DNA of 64,000 bases from Kribbella antiqua (GCF_004345665.1 NZ_SLWR01000013.1:62001-126000); one strand, 5' to 3'; shown: positions 4,750 to 31,039, numbered from the stretch's first letter. Notes: generated from the letters alone by a model not told the origin. Translations and numbers: made by a program.

Positions 4750-6743
4750 GCCCGTACCCTCCCGATCGGCAGCAGGGCACGCACGGTGGTGCCGCGACCG
4801 GGCGCGGGTACTACCTCAAGTTGCCCGCCAATCTCCTCGGCCCGTTCGCGCATGCTGCCTAGCCCCACCCCGTCGGTACGCGGTGTGATCAGGCCGCTGC
4901 CGTCGTCGACGACACACACCTCCAGACGGCCGTCGAACCGCCGTACGGCGACTTGCACCCGAGCCGACCCGGAGTGCCTGGCGGCGTTGGTGACCGCCTC
5001 TTGCACGATCCGGTAGACGGCCACCTCGACCGCCGCGGGCAGGCCGGCGTTCTCTTCCACATCCACCGTTAGCGACAGACCTTCCCGGGAGAACCGCGCC
5101 GCGAGCTGGTGGATCGCCTCGGCCAGTCCGAGGTTGTCCAGCGCCGCGGGACGCAGTCCCTCGACGATCCTGCGCACGTCGACCACGGTGTCCTGGATCC
5201 GGCTGCGGAGCTCGAGCAGGCCCGACCGTGTCGCGTCCTCGGCGGCCGTGTTGCGGAGTGTGTCGACTTGGAGCAGCAATGCGGCCAGCGTGGGGCCGAG
5301 TCCGTCGTGTAGGTCCCTGCGAAGCCGCCGACGCTCCTCTTCGCGCGCGAGCACGAGCCGCTCCTGCGCGGCACGGACGGAGGCCAGCAGGCCGTCGGCG
5401 TGTACGACGGAACCGAGCTGTGCCGCCACAGTGGTCAGCAATGCGCGGTCGCCGTCACGCAGGGGTCGCTTACGCCAGCGGAGTGCGCCGACAGGTTCGC
5501 CGTACGCCGTGAGCACGAGCTCGTCCAGATCGTCGGGGCGCTCGCCGGACGACGCCAGAGTATGACCGCCGCGACCCGTGATCTCGACGTACCGGAGGCC
5601 GAGGTCGGTCGCGAGCTCACCCGCCAGGGAGTCCAGCAGGGCGCTGACGTCACCCGCATCGGCCAGCCTCCGCGCCGTACGGTCCAGGACCTCATGTGGC
5701 TGTGCCCACTGGCCGAAGGTGAGCTGATTGGCTGCCCGCTGGAGGCCGTCGCGCAGCGGCGCGAAGCTGACGGCGACCACTCCGGCGGCGACCCAGGGCA
5801 GCCAGATCGCGCCCTGCTGGCGGAGCAGCGCACCGACCCCGCCGACGACGAGTGCGTAGAGAGCCGCGATCAGGAGCCAGAGACTGCCGTACGTGACCGA
5901 GCGGTTGACCACGAGCGGCAGGTCGTACAGCCGCCGCTGCAGTACGGCGGTTCCGATTGCCACCGGCAGCGGGAGCGTGCAGAGACCGAACAGCCACGGT
6001 CCGGCGGAGTCGGTGAAGCTGGCGCCGAACGCGAGTACGGGTGGCACGAAGGCCAGTCCGAAGATCAAGGTCTGCTGGCGGCCTAGCGAACCGCTGAGGC
6101 GGTACTGCTGTACCAGGCAAGCCACTGTCAGACCCACGGAGACAACACCGAGGAACAGGCTGATCCCCGCCAGCGCGCCCATCGGGGTGACCATGACGTG
6201 TGGCAGACCGATCGGGCTGTCGATTCCGGCGAACTCGAGCCGGGTCAGGCGCGGCGACAGCAGTAGGGTCGCGGCAAAGCACCCGAGCGCTGCGCCGACG
6301 ACGGCGCGAGTTGTCCGGCGTAGCCGGGTTGGCCGAGCGGTGCCGTCAGGAAAGACCAGCGGCAGCCACAGCACCAGGACGAGCCAGGCCAGACCGCCCA
6401 GCGTGCTACCGACGGCCGAGGCGAGCGCGCCAGACCTGTCGGCCGGATCGGCCCGTAGAGCCTGGGTGCCCGCGTCTACGAGCGCCTGGCCTGGACCCCA
6501 TGCTGCTGCGGCGAGCAATGCGATCCGTCCGACCGGGCTGCCGGCACGGTGCCACACGATCAGTAGCCCGACTGCGGCGTACGCCACGACAACAGCGCCG
6601 ACGGCGGCCTCGTCCCGCCGGTCGGTGCCGGGAGACGAGACCGCGATCGCTACAGATTCTCCGGCCAGCGCCACCAGCGCGGCCAGGACAGCGACTGACC
6701 TCCGCATGACCACAGAGTGACCGACGACGGAGCCTGTGTACAT
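4746..6743 (-). CDS. NarL-system sensor histidine kinase (HisKA_3)
   Basis: 665-aa membrane kinase. The N-terminal half has about nine to ten hydrophobic helices; a GAF-like cytoplasmic linker follows. The HisKA_3 box RRDLHDGLGPT lies around residue 470, and the HATPase domain has YRIVQEAVTNAARHS and VDDGSGL. I start at ATG 6743, which overlaps the stop of the preceding membrane gene as TGATG; ATG 6707 (MRRSVAVL) is a plausible alternative 12 codons in. Longer in-frame reading only runs back into the preceding gene. Same architecture as the kinase at 28944. Confidence 0.9.
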   Translation of the reverse strand: MYTGSVVGHSVVMRRSVAVLAALVALAGESVAIAVSSPGTDRRDEAAVGAVVVAYAAVGLLIVWHRAGSPVGRIALLAAAAWGPGQALVDAGTQALRADPADRSGALASAVGSTLGGLAWLVLVLWLPLVFPDGTARPTRLRRTTRAVVGAALGCFAATLLLSPRLTRLEFAGIDSPIGLPHVMVTPMGALAGISLFLGVVSVGLTVACLVQQYRLSGSLGRQQTLIFGLAFVPPVLAFGASFTDSAGPWLFGLCTLPLPVAIGTAVLQRRLYDLPLVVNRSVTYGSLWLLIAALYALVVGGVGALLRQQGAIWLPWVAAGVVAVSFAPLRDGLQRAANQLTFGQWAQPHEVLDRTARRLADAGDVSALLDSLAGELATDLGLRYVEITGRGGHTLASSGERPDDLDELVLTAYGEPVGALRWRKRPLRDGDRALLTTVAAQLGSVVHADGLLASVRAAQERLVLAREEERRRLRRDLHDGLGPTLAALLLQVDTLRNTAAEDATRSGLLELRSRIQDTVVDVRRIVEGLRPAALDNLGLAEAIHQLAARFSREGLSLTVDVEENAGLPAAVEVAVYRIVQEAVTNAARHSGSARVQVAVRRFDGRLEVCVVDDGSGLITPRTDGVGLGSMRERAEEIGGQLEVVPAPGRGTTVRALLPIGRVRA

Positions 6744-7423
6744 CACACCCGCGGGATGTTTCTCCGCAACAGCACCACGGCCAGCCCGATCCACCAGACG
6801 AGCCAGAGCATGGATACGGCGTTGTGAGCCAGCGGAGTGGCCAGCAGTCCGACTCCTCCGACCGCCACACCGCCCCACCCGATCCACCGAGTGTGTAGCC
6901 GTTGCAGCAGCGCAGCGATCCCGATCGCAAGCGCCATAGCGGCACTCATGGCGACCTGGAGGACATGGCCGAAGTTGCGGATGTCGCTGACAATTGCGAT
7001 CGCACTCGGGTCGCCGCCGTGATGGGCGGCGTACAGGGCCGCGGCACCTGGTGCGAAGCCGACGGCCAGTGTGGAAGCGACATAGCCGATTCCGAGTGCG
7101 GCGAAGGTCTGTGCGGCCAGTCGGCCTCCCGTCGTACGTTGCGAGAACAGCCAGGCGACAAGCACGATGGCGGGCATCAGGACAAGGAACGACAGCGCCT
7201 CGACGTAGCCGGCGCCCAGAGCACGGCCGACCGACGCGCCGCCGTAGATGTCGACGAGCCTGCTCGGCGCGATGCCGTGCTCGGCCGCGGCAACGCCTTC
7301 GAAACTGAACGCCGCAAGCATCAGCACGACGTGCCCGAGCGCAAACCCGCCCGCAAAACGCCTGTACGACGCCGTCGCATCAGCCTCCTGCTTGGAGCGC
7401 GGAGTGGTGGAGAACTGGACCAT
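6743..7423 (-). CDS. multi-pass membrane protein, first gene of a two-component operon
   Basis: 226-aa protein with about six hydrophobic helices and no recognised catalytic motif; it resembles DUF4386-like membrane proteins in size and layout. ATG 7423 has a GAGGGGG ribosome site 7-8 nt upstream, which decides against the longer frame to 7588. Its stop overlaps the kinase start by one base (TGATG). A membrane protein sits beside the second NarL-type pair too (31040), so it may be the sensor accessory or a regulated product. Function unknown. Confidence 0.8.
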   Translation of the reverse strand: MVQFSTTPRSKQEADATASYRRFAGGFALGHVVLMLAAFSFEGVAAAEHGIAPSRLVDIYGGASVGRALGAGYVEALSFLVLMPAIVLVAWLFSQRTTGGRLAAQTFAALGIGYVASTLAVGFAPGAAALYAAHHGGDPSAIAIVSDIRNFGHVLQVAMSAAMALAIGIAALLQRLHTRWIGWGGVAVGGVGLLATPLAHNAVSMLWLVWWIGLAVVLLRRNIPRV

Positions 7424-22338: not shown

Positions 22339-23334
22339 CTAGCCCAGCGTCCGGGGTAGGCCGAAGTACGGTGCGAGCGCTGCCTCGAATCGAGTCAGCT
22401 CGCAGATCCGGTCGCCGGCGAGGCCGACTACGTAGACGCCGGTGACGTGCAGGAGGCCGGTGACGGGGTCTCGGCGATAGTCGCCCCACGCCGGCTGACC
22501 GTTCGCGCGGACAGGCACCAACTGGTCGCTCTCCCTCCAGTGGAGGTAGACCGCAGTGAAGAAGCGGTGCACCGCAGCGGTTCCGCGGTACTCGAACGGC
22601 AGGGGCGGCATCCGCATCCACGCGTCGTCGGTCATCAGCGCGACAAGCGCGTCGATGTCATGTTCGGTGAAGGCCGCGACGAAGCGGTCGAGCAGCGCCC
22701 GCTCCTCCGACCCGCCGGGCGGGGGTGGGGGTGGATCGGTCGAGCGGGACGCGGCCATCGTCGCGCGGGCACGCTTGAGCGCGCTGGTGACAGCGTCCTC
22801 GGTGAGCCCCAGCAGTTGCGCGGTCTCACTGGCGCGGTATCCGAGCACGTCGCGCAGTAGCAGCACGGCGCGCTGGTTCGGGGGGAGCAGTTGAACGGCG
22901 GTGACGAACGCAAGCGAGATCGCCTCGCGTGACTCGTAGCGGGCCTCGGGCCCGGGCGCCTGGTCGGACAATCCCCCCAGTAGCACGTCGGGGAAAGGCT
23001 GTAGCCACAGCACCTCACCCAGACGGGTCGGCTCCGGCGGCCGTACCGGCAGCGGTGCCGCCGTCACAGGCCGCCGTCCGGACGAGCGCAGCAGGTTCAG
23101 GCACCGGTTGGTGGCGATGCGGTACAGCCAGGTGCGGACCGACGAGCGGCCCTCGAAGCCGTCGATGCCGAGCCACGCCGCGAGCAGCGTCTCCTGCACC
23201 GCGTCCTCGGCGTCCTGCAGCGAACCGAGCATCCGGTAGCAATGCACCTGCAGCTCGCCACGGTGCGACTCCACCAGGGCAGCGAACGCGTCCCGGTCCC
23301 CGCCCCGCGCCCGCTGGAGCAGTTCTGCCGACAT
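22339..23334 (-). CDS. ECF sigma factor with C-terminal SnoaL-like domain
   Basis: 331 aa. Region 2 is at about 8-75 (RMLGSLQDAEDAVQETLLAAW) and region 4 at about 145-200 (LPPNQRAVLLLRDVLGYRAS, then ALKRARATM). A Pro-rich hinge leads to a SnoaL-like domain (LLDRFVAAFTEHDIDALVAL to the end). This is the SigG/SigJ-like group, in which the tail replaces an anti-sigma factor and tunes activity. There is no anti-sigma gene beside it, in line with that. Divergent from the SDR at 23472, a likely target. ATG start at 23334; GGTGG lies a few bases before it. Confidence 0.9.
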   Translation of the reverse strand: MSAELLQRARGGDRDAFAALVESHRGELQVHCYRMLGSLQDAEDAVQETLLAAWLGIDGFEGRSSVRTWLYRIATNRCLNLLRSSGRRPVTAAPLPVRPPEPTRLGEVLWLQPFPDVLLGGLSDQAPGPEARYESREAISLAFVTAVQLLPPNQRAVLLLRDVLGYRASETAQLLGLTEDAVTSALKRARATMAASRSTDPPPPPPGGSEERALLDRFVAAFTEHDIDALVALMTDDAWMRMPPLPFEYRGTAAVHRFFTAVYLHWRESDQLVPVRANGQPAWGDYRRDPVTGLLHVTGVYVVGLAGDRICELTRFEAALAPYFGLPRTLG

Positions 23335-24418: not shown

Positions 24419-25231
24419 ATGAGTGAGGATGCAGAGCTGGTTCCGTTGTCGGATGAGGAGCTGAATGCCCAGGTCGGCAGCATGTTGCCGGATAAGGAGG
24501 TCGTTTCGATCCTCGACCTCAACGTCGATCTGGCGCTTGCCATTGATGCGGCGGCACCGATCGAGTTGGCGGTGGCCGCGAACGCGAATGTTGCCGCGCC
24601 GATCGACGCGGCTGTCGGCGCGAACATCTTGTCCAGTGGCTCCGAGGCTCAGGCACTGGCCGACCAAGGTGTCCTGATCACGCAGGGCATTGATGCGGAC
24701 GCGACGGCGCACGCTGTCCAGGTCAGCGGAATCGATCAGTCCAACGACGTGGTCGATGCCGGGTCCTCTACCCCGGTGGTGGGCGGCGCCGCCGACAGCA
24801 CGTCCACGAGTGATGCGCCAAGTACGGGGTCTGAGCCGGCTAGTGGCGCGGGCACGGCCGCCGGTGGCGCCGAGACACCTTCGGAGGAGAGCACTGGGAT
24901 AGCTGGCGGGGAGCCTGCGGCCGATCCTGCGGCGGGTGCGGTTGTTCCGGATACTGGGTTGGAGACTCCTGACACGAGCCAGTTGCTGGATGGCAGCCTG
25001 CTGGCTGTCAACGTCGATGTCGATGCCGACGTCGACCTTGCCGCTCCGATCGCTGGTGCGGTGGCGGCGAACGCGAATGTGGCGGCTCCGATCGATGCCG
25101 CCGTCGCGGCCAACGTGGGCGCTGTCGACAGTCAGTCGGTGGCGGTCGCGCAGCAGGACGCGATCATCAACCAGGACATCACTGGCTCGGCGGACGCCAG
25201 CGCAGAGCAGACTTCCGAGATCGAGCAGTAA
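24419..25231 (+). CDS. two-module Ala/Asn-rich protein, putative peptide precursor of an M50-protease system
   Basis: 270 aa with a clear GGAGG ribosome site. Acidic leader-like start (MSEDAELVPLSDEELNAQ, then LPDKEVVS), then module 1 (30-107), a Ser/Thr/Gly/Pro/Glu-rich linker (108-192) and module 2 (193-270, to the end). Both modules share a core AVAANANVAAPIDAAV flanked by NVD strands and end in I-D-Q or I-E-Q. No cysteine, no signal peptide, no membrane helix. It lies 33 bp upstream of a membrane M50 peptidase with a PqqD-like domain, so I infer it is the substrate or partner of that protein. I know no named family for it. Confidence 0.8.
   Translation: MSEDAELVPLSDEELNAQVGSMLPDKEVVSILDLNVDLALAIDAAAPIELAVAANANVAAPIDAAVGANILSSGSEAQALADQGVLITQGIDADATAHAVQVSGIDQSNDVVDAGSSTPVVGGAADSTSTSDAPSTGSEPASGAGTAAGGAETPSEESTGIAGGEPAADPAAGAVVPDTGLETPDTSQLLDGSLLAVNVDVDADVDLAAPIAGAVAANANVAAPIDAAVAANVGAVDSQSVAVAQQDAIINQDITGSADASAEQTSEIEQ
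24506..25228 (+). repeat. two 78-codon direct repeat modules
   Basis: Module 1 is 24506-24739 and module 2 is 24995-25228. The central AVAANANVAAPIDAAV is identical in both; synonymous codon differences show an old duplication. Confidence 0.75.
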
Positions 25232-25264
25232 CCCAGGGCAGTGTCCGGTCTGGAGGATTCGCCG

Positions 25265-27811
25265 GTGCGGGCCAGTGGGGCTTGCGTCGCGCGTGCGGTC
25301 GACTCGACCACCAGCTGCGTGACGTCGATCGGTGTGCCCGTCCGAGCGGCTGATGTGGTGCTGTTGGGTGAGATGTCCGGATCGGGTTATCGCACCCCGC
25401 CGGCGCTGGTCCGCCGCGCGGACGGGCAGATCATTCAGCTGACCAGACTGTTGTATCTGGTGCTGGAGGCGATCGATGGTCGTCGTGACGACGCGCAGAT
25501 CGCGGAGCTGGTCAGCGCGAGTTATGGCCGGTCTGTGTCGGCGGCCAATGTAGCGGCCCTGATCCGCAGGCTGCAGCCTCTTGGTCTGGTGCGCGGCGCG
25601 GATGGGTCGGAGCCGCGTGTGCGTAGGGCGAATCCGCTGCTCAGGCTGCGGTTCAGGTACACCGTCACCGACCCGCGTCGAACCGAGCGGATCACCCGGC
25701 CGTTTGCGCGGCTGTTCAATCCGCTGCCCGTGGTGGGCTTCGTTGCGGCGTTCGTGTACGTGTGCTGGTGGCTGTTGTTCGACAAGGGGCTGGCGTCGGC
25801 CGCGTATCAGGCGTTCCACGAGCCCGGCTTCTTGTTGCTGGTCTTCGCGGTGACCGTGCTGTCGGCGGGATTCCACGAGTTCGGCCACGCGGCGGCCGCC
25901 CGGTACGGAGGATCGACGCCGGGCGCCATGGGCATGGGGTACTACCTCTTCTGGCCCGCCTTCTACACCGACGTCACAGACTCCTACCGGCTCGGGCGTG
26001 GCGGGCGCCTGCGCACCGACCTCGGCGGCTTGTACTTCAACGCCATCGTTGCGGTGGCGACCGTCGTGATCGCCCAGGTGACCGGGTACGACGCACTCCT
26101 GCTGGTCGTGGTGACACAGATTCTGCAGATGATCCGGCAGCTGCTGCCGACCATTCGCTTCGACGGCTATCACGTGCTCGCCGACCTGACCGGCGTCCCC
26201 GACCTGTACCACCACATCAAGCCGACCCTGACCGGTCTGCTGCCCTGGCGCTGGCGAAACCGCCACAACCGGGCGCTCAAGCGATGGGCACAGGCGGTCA
26301 TCACCGTGTGGTGCCTCACCGTCGTGCCGCTGATGCTGGTCGTGTTGGCCATGACCGTGGTGATGCTGCCCCGGGTGCTGGCCACCGCCAAGGCAAGCGT
26401 CGAGGAGCAATGGCGGATGCTTGCCGGCGGCTGGCACGACGCGGACCTTGTCGAGATCCTGGCCCGTGGGCTGGCCATCCTCGCGCTGGCGCTGCCTCTG
26501 CTCGGCCTGGGGCTGCTGCTGTGGCTGATGGTCAGCAGGATGGTGAGGTCGGTGTGGCGGCGTACGGCGGGCAAGCCCGCGCAGCGTTCAGTCGCCGCGG
26601 TCGTCGCGTTGACGATCATCGCGGCGCTCGGGTGGGTTTGGTGGCCCCACAGCGACCGGTACCGGCCGATCACCCCGAACGAGCGTGGCACGATCACAGA
26701 TTTCGTCGATCGGGCAGAGCCTGCGACCTCGCAGCCTCCCACCGGCAGTGGCCAGCTGAGCGAGGGGGACGTGAATCGGACCCAGGTCCTGTGGCCAGCC
26801 GGGGTGAAGCGACCCAGCCGTCAAAGCCCGACGTTGGCTCTCGTCATGGTGCCTCGTACCTCGGGCAGTGCTCGCGTGGGCGCACCGTCGACCTCATCGC
26901 CGACCGCCGTCGCACCCACAGCCGCTGCATCCCCGAACGACGCCTCGAGCGGCCTGCCTGGAGCAAACGACCCGCAATCAGATGGGGCTCCGGTGTGGGT
27001 GTTCCCCTTCGACAAGCCACTTCCTGCGGAGCCAGGCGACAACCAAGCGCTCGCCGTCAACACCACAAACGACACCGTGATCTACGACATCGCCTTCGCT
27101 TTGGTCTGGCTCGATGCTTCCCCAGATCCGGTGACGAACACCAACGAGGCCTACGCATTCGCAAGCTGCACGCACTGCGCGGCGGTGGCAATCGCCTTCC
27201 AAGTAGTGCTGGTCATCGGCAACGCGGACATCGTCGTACCCCAGAACCTCGCCGGAGCGCTGAACTACAACTGCGTGCAGTGCCTGACCTACGCACTCGC
27301 AACCCAACTTGTCCTGACATTGGACCAGCCACTCTCGGTCGATGGCATTGCAGCTCTCAACCAGGTCTGGGCGCAACTGGCAGACTTCACGCGTTCGATC
27401 CAGCAATACCCGCTATCCGAACTACGCGACCGGCTCACCTCCTTCGAGCAACAGATCCTCGGCGTCATCGCCGCCGACGGTGCGCTGACCACGCCTGACA
27501 CGCCCCAGGCAGCAACGCCGACAGCACAACCAGGACAAGACCCGACCGACGCCGGCGACCAGTCACCCACCACCGAGACCCCCACACCCTCGCTCAGCCC
27601 GAGCGAACAGCCACAGGTCGCGCCCACGAGTACCCCGACGACAACGACTCTCCCAGCGCCCACACCAACTACCTCCGCAACCAGCCCGACGGATCAGACC
27701 ACACCAACTCAGATCACACCGGATCCATCCACCACACCGACCAAGACAGAAACGCCCGCCGCCACGCCCACCAAGACAGAAACGCCGACCACCACGCCGA
27801 CGTTGCCATGA
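25265..27811 (+). CDS. PqqD-like/M50 membrane metallopeptidase with two-CxxC C-terminal domain
   Basis: 848 aa from GTG 25265, chosen because GGAGG lies 8 nt before it; GTG 25241 is 8 codons longer without a site. Residues about 25-110 are a PqqD/RRE-like winged helix (LVRRADGQIIQLTRLLY). The M50 site-2-type core has HEFGH at 204-208 and the second motif FDGYH with D300, amid about six membrane helices to 495. An outer domain (about 500-760) carries C635/C638 and C670/C673 (SCTHCAAVAIAFQVVL, NCVQCLTYALATQLVL). The last 90 residues are Thr/Pro-rich. Relatives such as YydH cut peptides; the task here is inferred to be processing of the upstream two-module protein. Confidence 0.85.
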   Translation: MRASGACVARAVDSTTSCVTSIGVPVRAADVVLLGEMSGSGYRTPPALVRRADGQIIQLTRLLYLVLEAIDGRRDDAQIAELVSASYGRSVSAANVAALIRRLQPLGLVRGADGSEPRVRRANPLLRLRFRYTVTDPRRTERITRPFARLFNPLPVVGFVAAFVYVCWWLLFDKGLASAAYQAFHEPGFLLLVFAVTVLSAGFHEFGHAAAARYGGSTPGAMGMGYYLFWPAFYTDVTDSYRLGRGGRLRTDLGGLYFNAIVAVATVVIAQVTGYDALLLVVVTQILQMIRQLLPTIRFDGYHVLADLTGVPDLYHHIKPTLTGLLPWRWRNRHNRALKRWAQAVITVWCLTVVPLMLVVLAMTVVMLPRVLATAKASVEEQWRMLAGGWHDADLVEILARGLAILALALPLLGLGLLLWLMVSRMVRSVWRRTAGKPAQRSVAAVVALTIIAALGWVWWPHSDRYRPITPNERGTITDFVDRAEPATSQPPTGSGQLSEGDVNRTQVLWPAGVKRPSRQSPTLALVMVPRTSGSARVGAPSTSSPTAVAPTAAASPNDASSGLPGANDPQSDGAPVWVFPFDKPLPAEPGDNQALAVNTTNDTVIYDIAFALVWLDASPDPVTNTNEAYAFASCTHCAAVAIAFQVVLVIGNADIVVPQNLAGALNYNCVQCLTYALATQLVLTLDQPLSVDGIAALNQVWAQLADFTRSIQQYPLSELRDRLTSFEQQILGVIAADGALTTPDTPQAATPTAQPGQDPTDAGDQSPTTETPTPSLSPSEQPQVAPTSTPTTTTLPAPTPTTSATSPTDQTTPTQITPDPSTTPTKTETPAATPTKTETPTTTPTLP

Positions 27812-28308: not shown

Positions 28309-28947
28309 CTAGGCGCCTCCGAGACCGGCATCGCGCGCTCGGATGACCGCCTCGGTACGACTGGCGACACCTAGCTTCGCGAACGCGGACGACGTCAGGT
28401 TGTTGACGGTCTTGAGGGAGAGTCCGAGCTCGGCGGCGATCGCGGCGTTCGATAGCCCTCGGGCGAGATGGTGGACAGCCTCGCGCTCACGCCGTGTGAG
28501 CTCCGGGAATGGATCGACCGCGGGGTCGGGGGCCGTCAGCTTCGACAGGACATGACGCGCGACCGCCTGACTGAAGATGGCCTCGCCGGCGCTCACGGCC
28601 GTGACCGCACGCACGATCTCGTCCTTGGTGGCGCCCTTGAGGAGGTAGCCCCTCGCTCCCGCGCGCAGGGCCCGGCTCATGGTCCGTTCGTCCTCGGTCA
28701 TGGTCAGGACGAGCACGGCCACGTCAGGGGCGACCCTGGTGATCTCACGTGTGGCTTCGAAACCGTCCATGTCGGGCATCCCGAGGTCCATGATGACCAC
28801 GTCCGGATGCTCGGTCACGGCCACGCGCACTGCCTCGGCGCCGGTGGCTGCTTCGGCGACGAGGTCCATGTCGGGCAGCTGCTCAAAGAGGGCGCGTAGG
28901 CCGTCACGGACCACGGGGTGGTCGTCGGCAACCATCACCCTGATCAC
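28309..28947 (-). CDS. NarL/LuxR-family response regulator
   Basis: 212 aa. Receiver with D8/D9, D54 in VVIMDLGMPDMDG and the lysine of GYLLKGAT; LuxR helix-turn-helix (LTRREREAVHHLARGLSNAA, then GLSLKTVNNLTSSAFAKLGV). The GTG start at 28947 overlaps the kinase stop by 4 nt. Partner of the kinase at 28944; similar system at 4141. Confidence 0.93.
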   Translation of the reverse strand: MIRVMVADDHPVVRDGLRALFEQLPDMDLVAEAATGAEAVRVAVTEHPDVVIMDLGMPDMDGFEATREITRVAPDVAVLVLTMTEDERTMSRALRAGARGYLLKGATKDEIVRAVTAVSAGEAIFSQAVARHVLSKLTAPDPAVDPFPELTRREREAVHHLARGLSNAAIAAELGLSLKTVNNLTSSAFAKLGVASRTEAVIRARDAGLGGA

Positions 28948-30881
28948 GGCTCGACTCCGAGGGGCAGTACGGCGGTGACGAGACCGCCGTGGGGAGTGGG
29001 CCCGGCGTCGCAGGAGCCTCCGACCTCAGCGGCGCGAGTGTGCATCGAGCGCAGGCCGACGCCAGGACGCCACGCGGCGACCGGGTTTCCGTCGTCGGCG
29101 ACGGTCAGGCTGAGGGAACGGGTGTCGGTTGCTAGGGACACCACGGCGGACCGGGCTGTCGAGTGGCGCACGACGTTGGTCAACGCCTCGCTGGCGATCC
29201 GGTATGCCGCGACCTCGACGTCCGGCGAGAGCTCAGGGAGGCTGTCGGGTGCATGGACCTTCAGGGAGACCGGGCCCAGCTCGTCACATTGCCGACGCAG
29301 CGCGCCGATGAGCCCGAGCTGGTCGAGGGCAGGAGGTCGGAGACCGTAGACGAGTTGACGCACGTCGTCGATAGCCTCGCGCAGCTGGTCGGCCAGCTGA
29401 GTAGCGAGCTGCTCGGCCTTCTGCGGGTTCGTTCGTGCCGCGAGCGCCGTGCCGTCGGCCTTCAGTGCTGCCCCAGTGAGGGTCGGCCCGAGGCTGTCGT
29501 GCAGTTCCCGATGCAGGCGGTTTCGCTCCTCGGCCGCGGCGGTGAGCACATGGTCCCTCGAAGCCCGCAGCTGCCGGCTGAGCCGCGTTGCGTGAAGTGC
29601 CACCGCGAGCGGCCCGGACAGCAGATCCAGGATGGTCTGGTCCGCGTGCGACAGCTGTCGCTCTCCACGGCGTACTCCGATCTCGAGGCTTCCCTGCGAC
29701 TCGCCGGCGTGGAGGAGAGCGAGGCGCTGCACTTCGCCGTCAGGTTGACCCGACGTGAGCCGCTGACCGTCCGTCCCAACCAGTGACGCGTAGGGGAGCC
29801 GCAGGGCTTCGCGCAGCGCATCGAGCATCGTGCTCAGATCCTCACCCGCCAGATGCTGGCCGACGGCAGAGACGGCTTGGACCGGGTCGCGGCGCGCGCC
29901 GTAAAGCGCCTGCTCGACGCGTCGTTGCACGCGGAGCCTCAGCGGGTTGAATCCGAGCGCGACGGCCAGCGCAGCCAGGATGGGTGCGCCTGCCGCGGTC
30001 AGCACGAGGTTGAGCACGGCCACGATAGCGGAGTAGGCCAGGACGACGATCCCGGTCAAAGTTCCGTAGACGAGGACGCGTGACAGGGCCAGGCGGACGT
30101 CGAACAGCCGGTACCGCAGCACGGCGATGGTGACTGCGGTCGGGATCAGCGCAAAGCTGAGCAGGAGGAGGATCTCGCGGCCGGTGGGCAGGGAGAACCA
30201 GGACGGCACGTTGATGACGAGAGCCAGCACCACGGCGGCGAGCAACCACTGGAGCTGCTGCCTGACCGTCTCGTCGCCGCGCTTGTAGCGCACGGCGAGG
30301 GCCGCCAGAGACAGGAACACCACGATGGGGGCGAGGAGCCCGGCTGCCGCCTCGCCCCATTCCCACCACGGGGACACCAGATACGACGACGCGCCGTACT
30401 CCGGAGTCGGTCCAGTGCTGGTGGTTCCGATCAGCGCCGTCGCGAATGTCAGCCAGCCCAGGGCCCGCCACCTGGGGCTGAGTGGTGAGCCGGTTGGAAA
30501 CAGCTGCAGGGCGAGTGGCAGACAGAAGAACACTCCCCAGCCCCACGCGAAGGAGAACACGGTGACGATGGCGCGCATCACCGGCTCGGGCCAGCCGGCG
30601 TCCTGGCCACCGATCACCAACGGCGCTATGGCGGCGCTCACGAGGGGAGCGATACCAAGCCCCAGGAACAGCCATCCGATGGGATGTTCAGGCTTCGCCC
30701 TGGCCACGAGGTAGCCGCACGGTGCTGCGGACAAGCCGATGACGAGGTTGCTCAGCAGGTAGCTCGCGACTGCGTCGTCCCCGTTAAGGCGCACGACCAA
30801 GCCGCCACCGACGGCAACGCCGGCGAGCAGCACGCTGACGAAGAACGCTCCGTCGGCGAGCGTGACGCGTCCCCTTGCCAT
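28944..30881 (-). CDS. NarL-system sensor histidine kinase (HisKA_3)
   Basis: 645 aa with about nine to ten N-terminal membrane helices, a GAF-like linker, HisKA_3 with LHRELHDSLGPTLTG (H near 458), and HATPase (YRIASEALTNVVRHS, VADDGNPVA). ATG 30881 is the likeliest start; the ribosome site is weak, and an in-frame GTG about 10 codons upstream is an alternative. It overlaps the regulator by 4 nt. Divergent from the membrane protein at 31040, a possible target. Signal unknown. Confidence 0.9.
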   Translation of the reverse strand: MARGRVTLADGAFFVSVLLAGVAVGGGLVVRLNGDDAVASYLLSNLVIGLSAAPCGYLVARAKPEHPIGWLFLGLGIAPLVSAAIAPLVIGGQDAGWPEPVMRAIVTVFSFAWGWGVFFCLPLALQLFPTGSPLSPRWRALGWLTFATALIGTTSTGPTPEYGASSYLVSPWWEWGEAAAGLLAPIVVFLSLAALAVRYKRGDETVRQQLQWLLAAVVLALVINVPSWFSLPTGREILLLLSFALIPTAVTIAVLRYRLFDVRLALSRVLVYGTLTGIVVLAYSAIVAVLNLVLTAAGAPILAALAVALGFNPLRLRVQRRVEQALYGARRDPVQAVSAVGQHLAGEDLSTMLDALREALRLPYASLVGTDGQRLTSGQPDGEVQRLALLHAGESQGSLEIGVRRGERQLSHADQTILDLLSGPLAVALHATRLSRQLRASRDHVLTAAAEERNRLHRELHDSLGPTLTGAALKADGTALAARTNPQKAEQLATQLADQLREAIDDVRQLVYGLRPPALDQLGLIGALRRQCDELGPVSLKVHAPDSLPELSPDVEVAAYRIASEALTNVVRHSTARSAVVSLATDTRSLSLTVADDGNPVAAWRPGVGLRSMHTRAAEVGGSCDAGPTPHGGLVTAVLPLGVEP

Positions 30882-31039
30882 GACGCCATGATGACGCTCT
30901 CGCACCCCATCCGATAGGGAACTGCCTCCCGGGGCAGCCGGGCAGCCGCCCGGCCCCCGGAGGATCCACTCCACTGAACGGCGGTCTCGATTCCCTCCAG
31001 GATTGCTCCGAGAAGCACTCACCGACGTCTGGAGGCACC

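Follow-up and report, generated by a model that had tools for sequence, protein, structure and literature searches.

The gene pair in the window

The window studied here is a stretch of 64,000 nucleotides from Kribbella antiqua (NZ_SLWR01000013.1:62001-126000), and its subject is a pair of neighbouring genes between positions 24419 and 27811, which encode a putative precursor protein and a membrane protease of the M50 family (Table 1). An original prediction, made from the sequence alone, had described a 270-aa protein with an acidic leader-like start and two near-copy modules upstream of an M50 gene. Both open reading frames (ORFs) are confirmed, and so is the duplication: the local alignment of module 1 with module 2 scores 180, while the maximum in 1000 shuffles is 72. 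Judging from this alignment, the two modules are a true duplication.

Table 1. Coordinates of the precursor gene, the protease gene and their parts in the window.
Feature	Position	Strand	Remarks and basis
Precursor ORF	24419-25231	+	270 aa, ATG start, GGAGG upstream
Precursor leader, acidic N-terminus MSEDAELVPLSDEELNAQVGSM, ends LPDKEVVS (motif 24485-24508)	24419-24508	+	alignment with 12 other precursors
Precursor module 1 (SILDLNVDLALAIDAAAPIELAVAANANVAAPIDAAVGANILS...SGIDQ)	24506-24739	+	homology to short precursors with one module in other genera
Precursor linker between the modules, variable, Ser/Thr/Gly/Glu/Pro-rich	24740-24970	+	comparison of Kribbella orthologues
Precursor module 2 (LLAVNVDVDADVDLAAPIAGAVAANANVAAPIDAAVAANV...SEIEQ)	24971-25228	+	alignment with module 1
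RRE-M50-CxxC fusion protein	25241-27811	+	longest ORF from GTG 25241; probable start GTG 25266
PqqD-like / RRE domain, putative leader-binding winged helix	25328-25621	+	RRE families are recurrent best matches
Intramembrane M50 (site-2 protease) domain	25700-26644	+	HEFGH 25874-25888, DGY 26162-26170, last membrane helix about 26588-26644
Two-CxxC partner domain at the C-terminus, predicted to be extracellular	26996-27469	+	profile match E 1.8e-67
CxxC motifs of the fusion protein	27167-27178 and 27272-27283	+	sequence
Pro/Thr-rich low-complexity tail	27490-27808	+	read from sequence

In an alignment of the window precursor with 12 others the residues L, P, E and S of the leader pattern LPxxE..S are invariant. 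In three Kribbella orthologues the linker is 74 to 101 aa long, and its evolution is faster than that of the modules, with dN/dS values of 0.34-0.43 compared to 0.02-0.05 for module 1 and 0.08-0.28 for module 2 in the same three genomes. For the protease the value is 0.22-0.25, and according to these ratios both genes are under purifying selection. The window precursor has no Sec signal, and no family in Pfam, NCBIfam or PHROG matches it.

The probable start codon of the protease gene has GGAGG 8 nt upstream and lies 34 bp past the stop of the precursor gene. The encoded protein carries, in this order, a domain similar to PqqD and to the recognition elements (RRE) of ribosomally synthesized and post-translationally modified peptides (RiPPs), the M50 domain, the last membrane helix, the two-CxxC domain and a Pro/Thr-rich tail. 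HExxH and the distal Asp of DGY are located among membrane helices, as M50 site-2 proteases (S2Ps) require; HExxH is present in all 55 members of the protease tree and DGY is conserved family-wide. Kyte-Doolittle counts gave no safe topology, and its prediction uses only whether the last helix is present. The putative winged-helix domain of the kind that grasps RiPP leaders, described in the original prediction, is supported by a Pfam PqqD match below cut-off, by a match of the protein to the daptide protease model (E 1e-31) and by an alignment of 16 such domains. The recurrent best matches of these domains in Pfam, NCBIfam and PDB searches are, below threshold, the RRE families ApyI, PqqD and daptide protease, and the top PDB match of the alignment is the PqqD crystal structure, which is a weak match (E 0.1). 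The AlphaFold model of the protease (pLDDT 34.9) is unusable.

Linkage and co-occurrence of precursor and protease

The survey covered 38 Kribbella genomes, 100 genomes of the phylum and 247 of the class; in the latter two sets the protease was sought with a profile built from an alignment of seven RRE-M50 regions. This survey is an evenly drawn sample and not a census, in which related genomes are counted several times (the loci L018 and L003, for example, are from the same organism), and the leader pattern as well as the precursor types (A to F, see below) were defined after inspection of the loci. The protease was found in 43 of the 247 class genomes, belonging to 19 of 104 genera, which is about one genome in six. 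On the phylum level nine of the 100 genomes gave matches, one of which (G060) is weak and was shown not to belong to the family.

The neighbourhoods of 60 loci were compared. Two of them (L091, L092) are distant non-members, and in another three the contig begins with the protease, leaving 55 assessable loci. All 55 have an ORF with an LPx[RK]xx[LMVI] leader upstream of the protease, mostly within 1.2 kb; in L060 the last position of the motif is occupied by Ala, the leader being otherwise the same. As controls, the leader motif was found at 6 of 60 loci on the opposite strand, at 3 of 60 farther upstream and at 2 of 60 downstream. Gene order and strand are constant with the exception of L062, in which the precursor gene is divergent.

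The precursor profile, which covers types A and C, matches 23 of the 247 class genomes, and 22 of these also match the protease profile (P 1.5e-18). In the remaining genome (G212) an RRE coding sequence lies directly behind the precursor and runs off the contig edge, bringing the total to 23/23. In G144 the precursors had seemed detached; they lie at the end of one contig, and the protease of this genome at the end of another. Neither a precursor occurring mostly without the M50 gene nor an M50 gene residing mostly beside other partners was observed, and the earlier reading of the two genes as a precursor/protease pair is thus well supported by constant linkage and by co-occurrence.

The pair is also present in two other Kribbella genomes, at least one of which has other genes on its flanks. 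The K. pratensis relative (L003) is 82% identical. Its pair (L003:340-2809) is situated, as judged by eye, a few kb from gas-vesicle GvpF/L-like genes, unlike the copy in the window. Because the flanks differ in this way, a move of the two genes as a unit, or else a rearrangement around them, seems to have taken place between K. pratensis and the window. No relatives were found in viral contigs. Plasmid copies are annotated as 'hypothetical protein'; a plasmid search with the full-length split Kribbella protease was swamped by its fused MinD/ParA domain.

Precursor types and the protease tree

The leader is common to all clades and the cores differ completely between them; a leader that is kept in front of variable cores is a hallmark of leader/core logic. 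Six types of precursors were distinguished. In type A the precursor is a single long protein with two modules, like that of the window. Type B consists of short peptides, usually two, from other Kribbella and some other genera. Type C comprises one to three short peptides of about 65-82 aa, for example MAENKDQAIDLTDEEIEQESGEELPDREAMSLINANLAAPVNAAVALNVLSDSSTAYANAEQTAIINQST, which are of the Ala/Asn type like A. Type D is found in Streptomyces and has cores of the form KFSFNKTTNVTKHIAN...SVAxSxASQSIxVxQ (NVTKHIAN..SVAxSxASQSIxVxQ), type E has cores such as ...NSPGSNNSYIENHSEPQIAYSS...NQW, and type F has Gly-rich and odd cores. The type C peptides align with module 1 of type A, which has one insertion. 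Therefore the earlier statement that no recognisable core peptide is present does not hold, as each module has homologues among the short precursors of other genera, which consist of one module.

When mapped on the protease tree the precursor type changes six times, the minimum being five and the mean in shuffles 33.6. Type A forms a single clade (support 100/100) spanning seven families, and the long two-module precursor coincides with the CxxC-protease fusion in 16 of 16 loci. By these comparisons the window pair is the fused version of a wider family, which elsewhere has short peptides and a separate, predicted secreted CxxC protein.

Some type C loci (L080:5506-5688 +, L086:5443-5649 +, and L143 at 2068-2256 of the reverse complement) encode an extra small protein upstream of the precursors, which is module-like (RRTIRRSxNGINVVADVNAVVATxxGxxSSS..VTQ) and has no LPDRE leader. 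The type E loci L099-L109 often encode two leader-bearing peptides with different cores, one of them ...GGFMPILITLMPSINxIxQ, and these peptide pairs look like two-component products.

The CxxC partner domain

A profile of the CxxC domain matches 31 of the 247 class genomes, all 31 of which carry the protease (P 6e-30). The domain is in cis with the protease in all 16 type A loci. In types B, C and D it is a separate protein beside the protease, typically with a signal-peptide-like start. The two CxxC motifs of the original prediction are indeed present; their assignment to the peptidase itself has to be revised, since the distribution identifies the region as a separable partner domain and third component of the system. 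Neither Pfam nor NCBIfam has a family that it matches, and searches for related families and structures gave nothing convincing.

The Kribbella type B protease is missing the last membrane helix and carries a MinD/ParA ATPase instead, which fits a protease end that is cytoplasmic in Kribbella type B and outside in type A. Related RRE-M50 proteins of this kind, in which a C-terminal MinD/ParA-type ATPase replaces the CxxC domain, are found in four Kribbella genomes (L019-L022, e.g. L020:9073-11442 +). At the same loci the separate CxxC gene is followed by a small lipoprotein-like gene (138-144 aa) with two Cys besides the lipobox. A type A CxxC-domain ORF with neither an adjacent protease nor an adjacent precursor is present in L140 (G264:C4, about 5989-7104); it is probably what is left of a type A locus that has decayed, and the same genome also has a type B locus.

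Genetic neighbourhood

The neighbours of the pair in the window encode a hemerythrin, a RibD_C protein, a sigma factor, a two-component system, a SnoaL protein and a CitMHS permease; a zinc-type quinone dehydrogenase is 4.5 kb away. The sigma factor, upstream of the pair (22339-23334, minus strand), is a sigma-70 factor with a C-terminal SnoaL domain. Downstream and convergent (28309-31022, minus strand) are a NarL-type response regulator and a HisKA_3 histidine kinase, which are not conserved beside other family members. As stated in the original prediction, a radical SAM enzyme and a dedicated ABC exporter are absent among the scanned window neighbours, and across the loci no modifying enzyme, radical SAM, ABC exporter or immunity gene is conserved beside the protease. 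ABC ATPases are encoded within 7 kb of the protease in nine loci of three families, at most a hint, given how common this protein family is. Genes with low GC content at third codon positions escape the simple gene caller, and the conservation of neighbours is therefore a lower bound.

Relation to known systems

By profile scores the closest known relatives of the family are the daptide protease MpaP and the epipeptide YydH/LiaK proteases. The window protease matches the NCBIfam model daptide_HExxH (NF041824) with E 1.2e-31 and 110 bits, and relatives score 106, 98, 84 and 77 bits, the curated cut-off being 300; the match to YydH/LiaK (NF058609) has E 6e-10 and 39 bits at a cut-off of 225.

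As in the daptide protease MpaP, for which leader removal has been proposed, the RRE is fused N-terminally to a site-2 protease, with leader-bearing precursors adjoining, in actinobacteria (PMC10036551). However, the leader is LPx(R/K)E here and ELExMEAP in daptides, and the invariant C-terminal Thr of daptides (PMC10036551) is replaced by ...SEIEQ in the window precursor, and in other precursors the last residue is mostly Q, N, H, R, G or W, with T in some of type C. The CxxC partner and the long two-module precursor likewise distinguish the family from daptides, and the set of MpaB (RRE partner), MpaC (alcohol-dehydrogenase-type), MpaD (transaminase) and MpaM (methyltransferase) is neither found among the window neighbours nor conserved across loci.

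Epipeptide systems (YydFGHIJ / EpeXEPAB) possess a radical SAM epimerase and are not known to have a fused RRE, in contrast to the present family with its fused RRE and no conserved radical SAM gene. The likeness is in the M50 membrane protease (YydH, EpeP or LiaK), which is thought to cut and export the peptide, both steps having been proposed for EpeP (PMC10885120). Another S2P-clan protease, TmcP, removes the leader of the membrane-inserted TMcin precursor (PMC13252029). TmcP differs in being a DUF3267 protein (PF11667), for which no RRE is mentioned, and in acting on a precursor with a transmembrane helix; the TMcin gene cluster, a Gram-positive one studied in Staphylococcus aureus, also contains ABC transporter, escort and DsbA-like genes (PMC13252029). 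DUF3267 is not among the Pfam matches of the window proteins. YydH/LiaK and TmcP may be regarded as functional analogues with other partners.

Membership in the daptides, epipeptides or TMcins was rejected, because scores, leader, C-terminus, gene content or protease family do not match. A conserved leader and a variable core encoded beside the acting enzyme are what is generally asked of a RiPP-like leader/core system, and both are found here. As far as sequences can tell, the system works like a RiPP leader/protease pair, yet outside every described RiPP class tested. A literature search, which most subscription journals were outside the reach of, found no mention of the family motifs, and the main text of RRE-Finder does not mention M50.

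Proposed mechanism and alternatives

We think it likely that the family represents a RiPP-like leader/core system with a built-in protease-exporter and a dedicated partner protein. Constant linkage, the shared leader with variable cores, co-occurrence, co-fusion and co-phylogeny argue for this, as does the fact that the protease domain is nearest to the leader-removing S2P proteases of daptides and epipeptides. The precursor would be made with an acidic leader ending in LPDKE, and, by what is known of such domains, the N-terminal RRE of the membrane protease would grip this leader on the inner side. The M50 domain would then cleave the precursor close to where leader and core meet, at the membrane or within it, while the core passes out, as proposed for EpeP and MpaP. 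To judge from the anatomy, and since no exporter is conserved beside the protease, the product would leave through the protease itself.

The released product would be one or two Ala/Asn-rich modules with alternating hydrophobicity, probably beta-structured. In the window modules the 170-degree hydrophobic moment is 0.32 and 0.34 compared to 0.21 +/- 0.04 in shuffles, a beta periodicity about 3 standard deviations above, and there is no helical moment; a beta-forming surface assembly is the preferred guess for this reason. Outside the cell the product would meet the CxxC domain, which is tethered to the protease here and a separate secreted protein in other lineages. We tentatively suggest that this partner serves at the cell surface as an anchor, folding aid or nucleator of the product, and a role of the pair in a modular coat is possible.

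The putative assembly would resemble that of bacterial functional amyloids such as curli, in which CsgA acts together with CsgB: repeat units rich in Ala, Asn and Gln and prone to beta structure would be joined by a related second protein that is secreted. Unlike curli, the present family has no curlin homology (no Pfam match), no Sec signal on the precursor and a leader whose removal is attributed to an RRE protease. A broader proposal is rather doubtful, namely a phylum-wide leader-directed secretion in which one RRE and S2P protein recognises, cuts and exports unmodified Ala/Asn-rich peptides that polymerise at the cell surface on a dedicated, co-evolving CxxC nucleator. If true, RiPP logic and the assembly of functional amyloids or coats would be combined in one system.

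Several observations speak against parts of this proposal. The 12 protease genomes without a CxxC domain have type E (eleven genomes) or type F precursors (one genome), so that the CxxC partner cannot be essential to the protease step. The kinship between the cores and the CxxC repeats is weakly supported, with profile scores above those of shuffles mainly in Kribbella type B. The beta periodicity is absent from the cores of types B, D and E, and the AlphaFold model of the precursor is helical at low confidence (pLDDT 51.9); the models were made from two sequences, those of the window and of K. pratensis, and their pLDDT is too low for use. The Pfam PqqD match falls below its curated cut-off, modifying enzymes may be encoded elsewhere in the genome, and binding, cleavage and export are predicted from sequence and by analogy.

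The strongest alternative concerns the product. It could be a secreted antimicrobial or cannibalism peptide of two or more components, namely the two modules in the window and the two or three short peptides at other loci, in which case the CxxC protein would protect the producer or chaperone the toxin. The nearest proteases, those of daptides and epipeptides, act on antimicrobial-class peptides, there are several related precursors per locus with strongly clade-specific cores, and the CxxC partner is strictly linked to the system. However, neither an immunity gene nor an ABC exporter is conserved beside the protease, the very slow evolution of module 1 (dN/dS 0.02-0.05) is unlike that of an arms-race peptide, and the long two-module precursors exceed the known RRE-S2P products in size. 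We regard an antimicrobial product as somewhat unlikely in itself, but as nearly as likely as a beta-forming surface assembly.

Site-2 proteases are best known for regulated proteolysis, and it is conceivable that the M50 domain performs regulated intramembrane proteolysis and releases a fragment that serves as a pheromone or regulator. The two-component system downstream of the pair and the fusion of the type B protease to a MinD/ParA ATPase would agree with this. The two-component genes are however not conserved neighbours, no anti-sigma or receptor partner is conserved either, and duplicated long modules with a secreted CxxC partner do not suit a short pheromone, which makes a signalling function improbable. 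Even less probable is a daptide or epipeptide system whose modification enzymes were lost or are kept elsewhere: despite the MpaP-like RRE and S2P architecture and the matches to both protease models, all scores stay far under the curated cut-offs, and an ELExMEAP leader, a consistent C-terminal Thr and modification genes in the neighbourhood are missing. The low-complexity Ala/Asn composition at what was, before the survey, a single locus could have meant that an Ala-rich protein merely precedes an unrelated membrane peptidase by chance, which is refuted by the recurrence of the pair in two other Kribbella and many other families, by 55/55 linkage, 23/23 co-occurrence and purifying selection.

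If the proposed leader/core system with its protease-exporter is right, RRE-guided intramembrane proteases would also serve systems without linked modifying enzymes, and two or three genes would suffice as a minimal device for exporting peptides under the direction of a leader. Since the two modules are fused, as are the two enzyme parts, their roles can be tested directly. The same proposal would predict that actinobacteria make surface or antimicrobial peptides of a class not seen so far.

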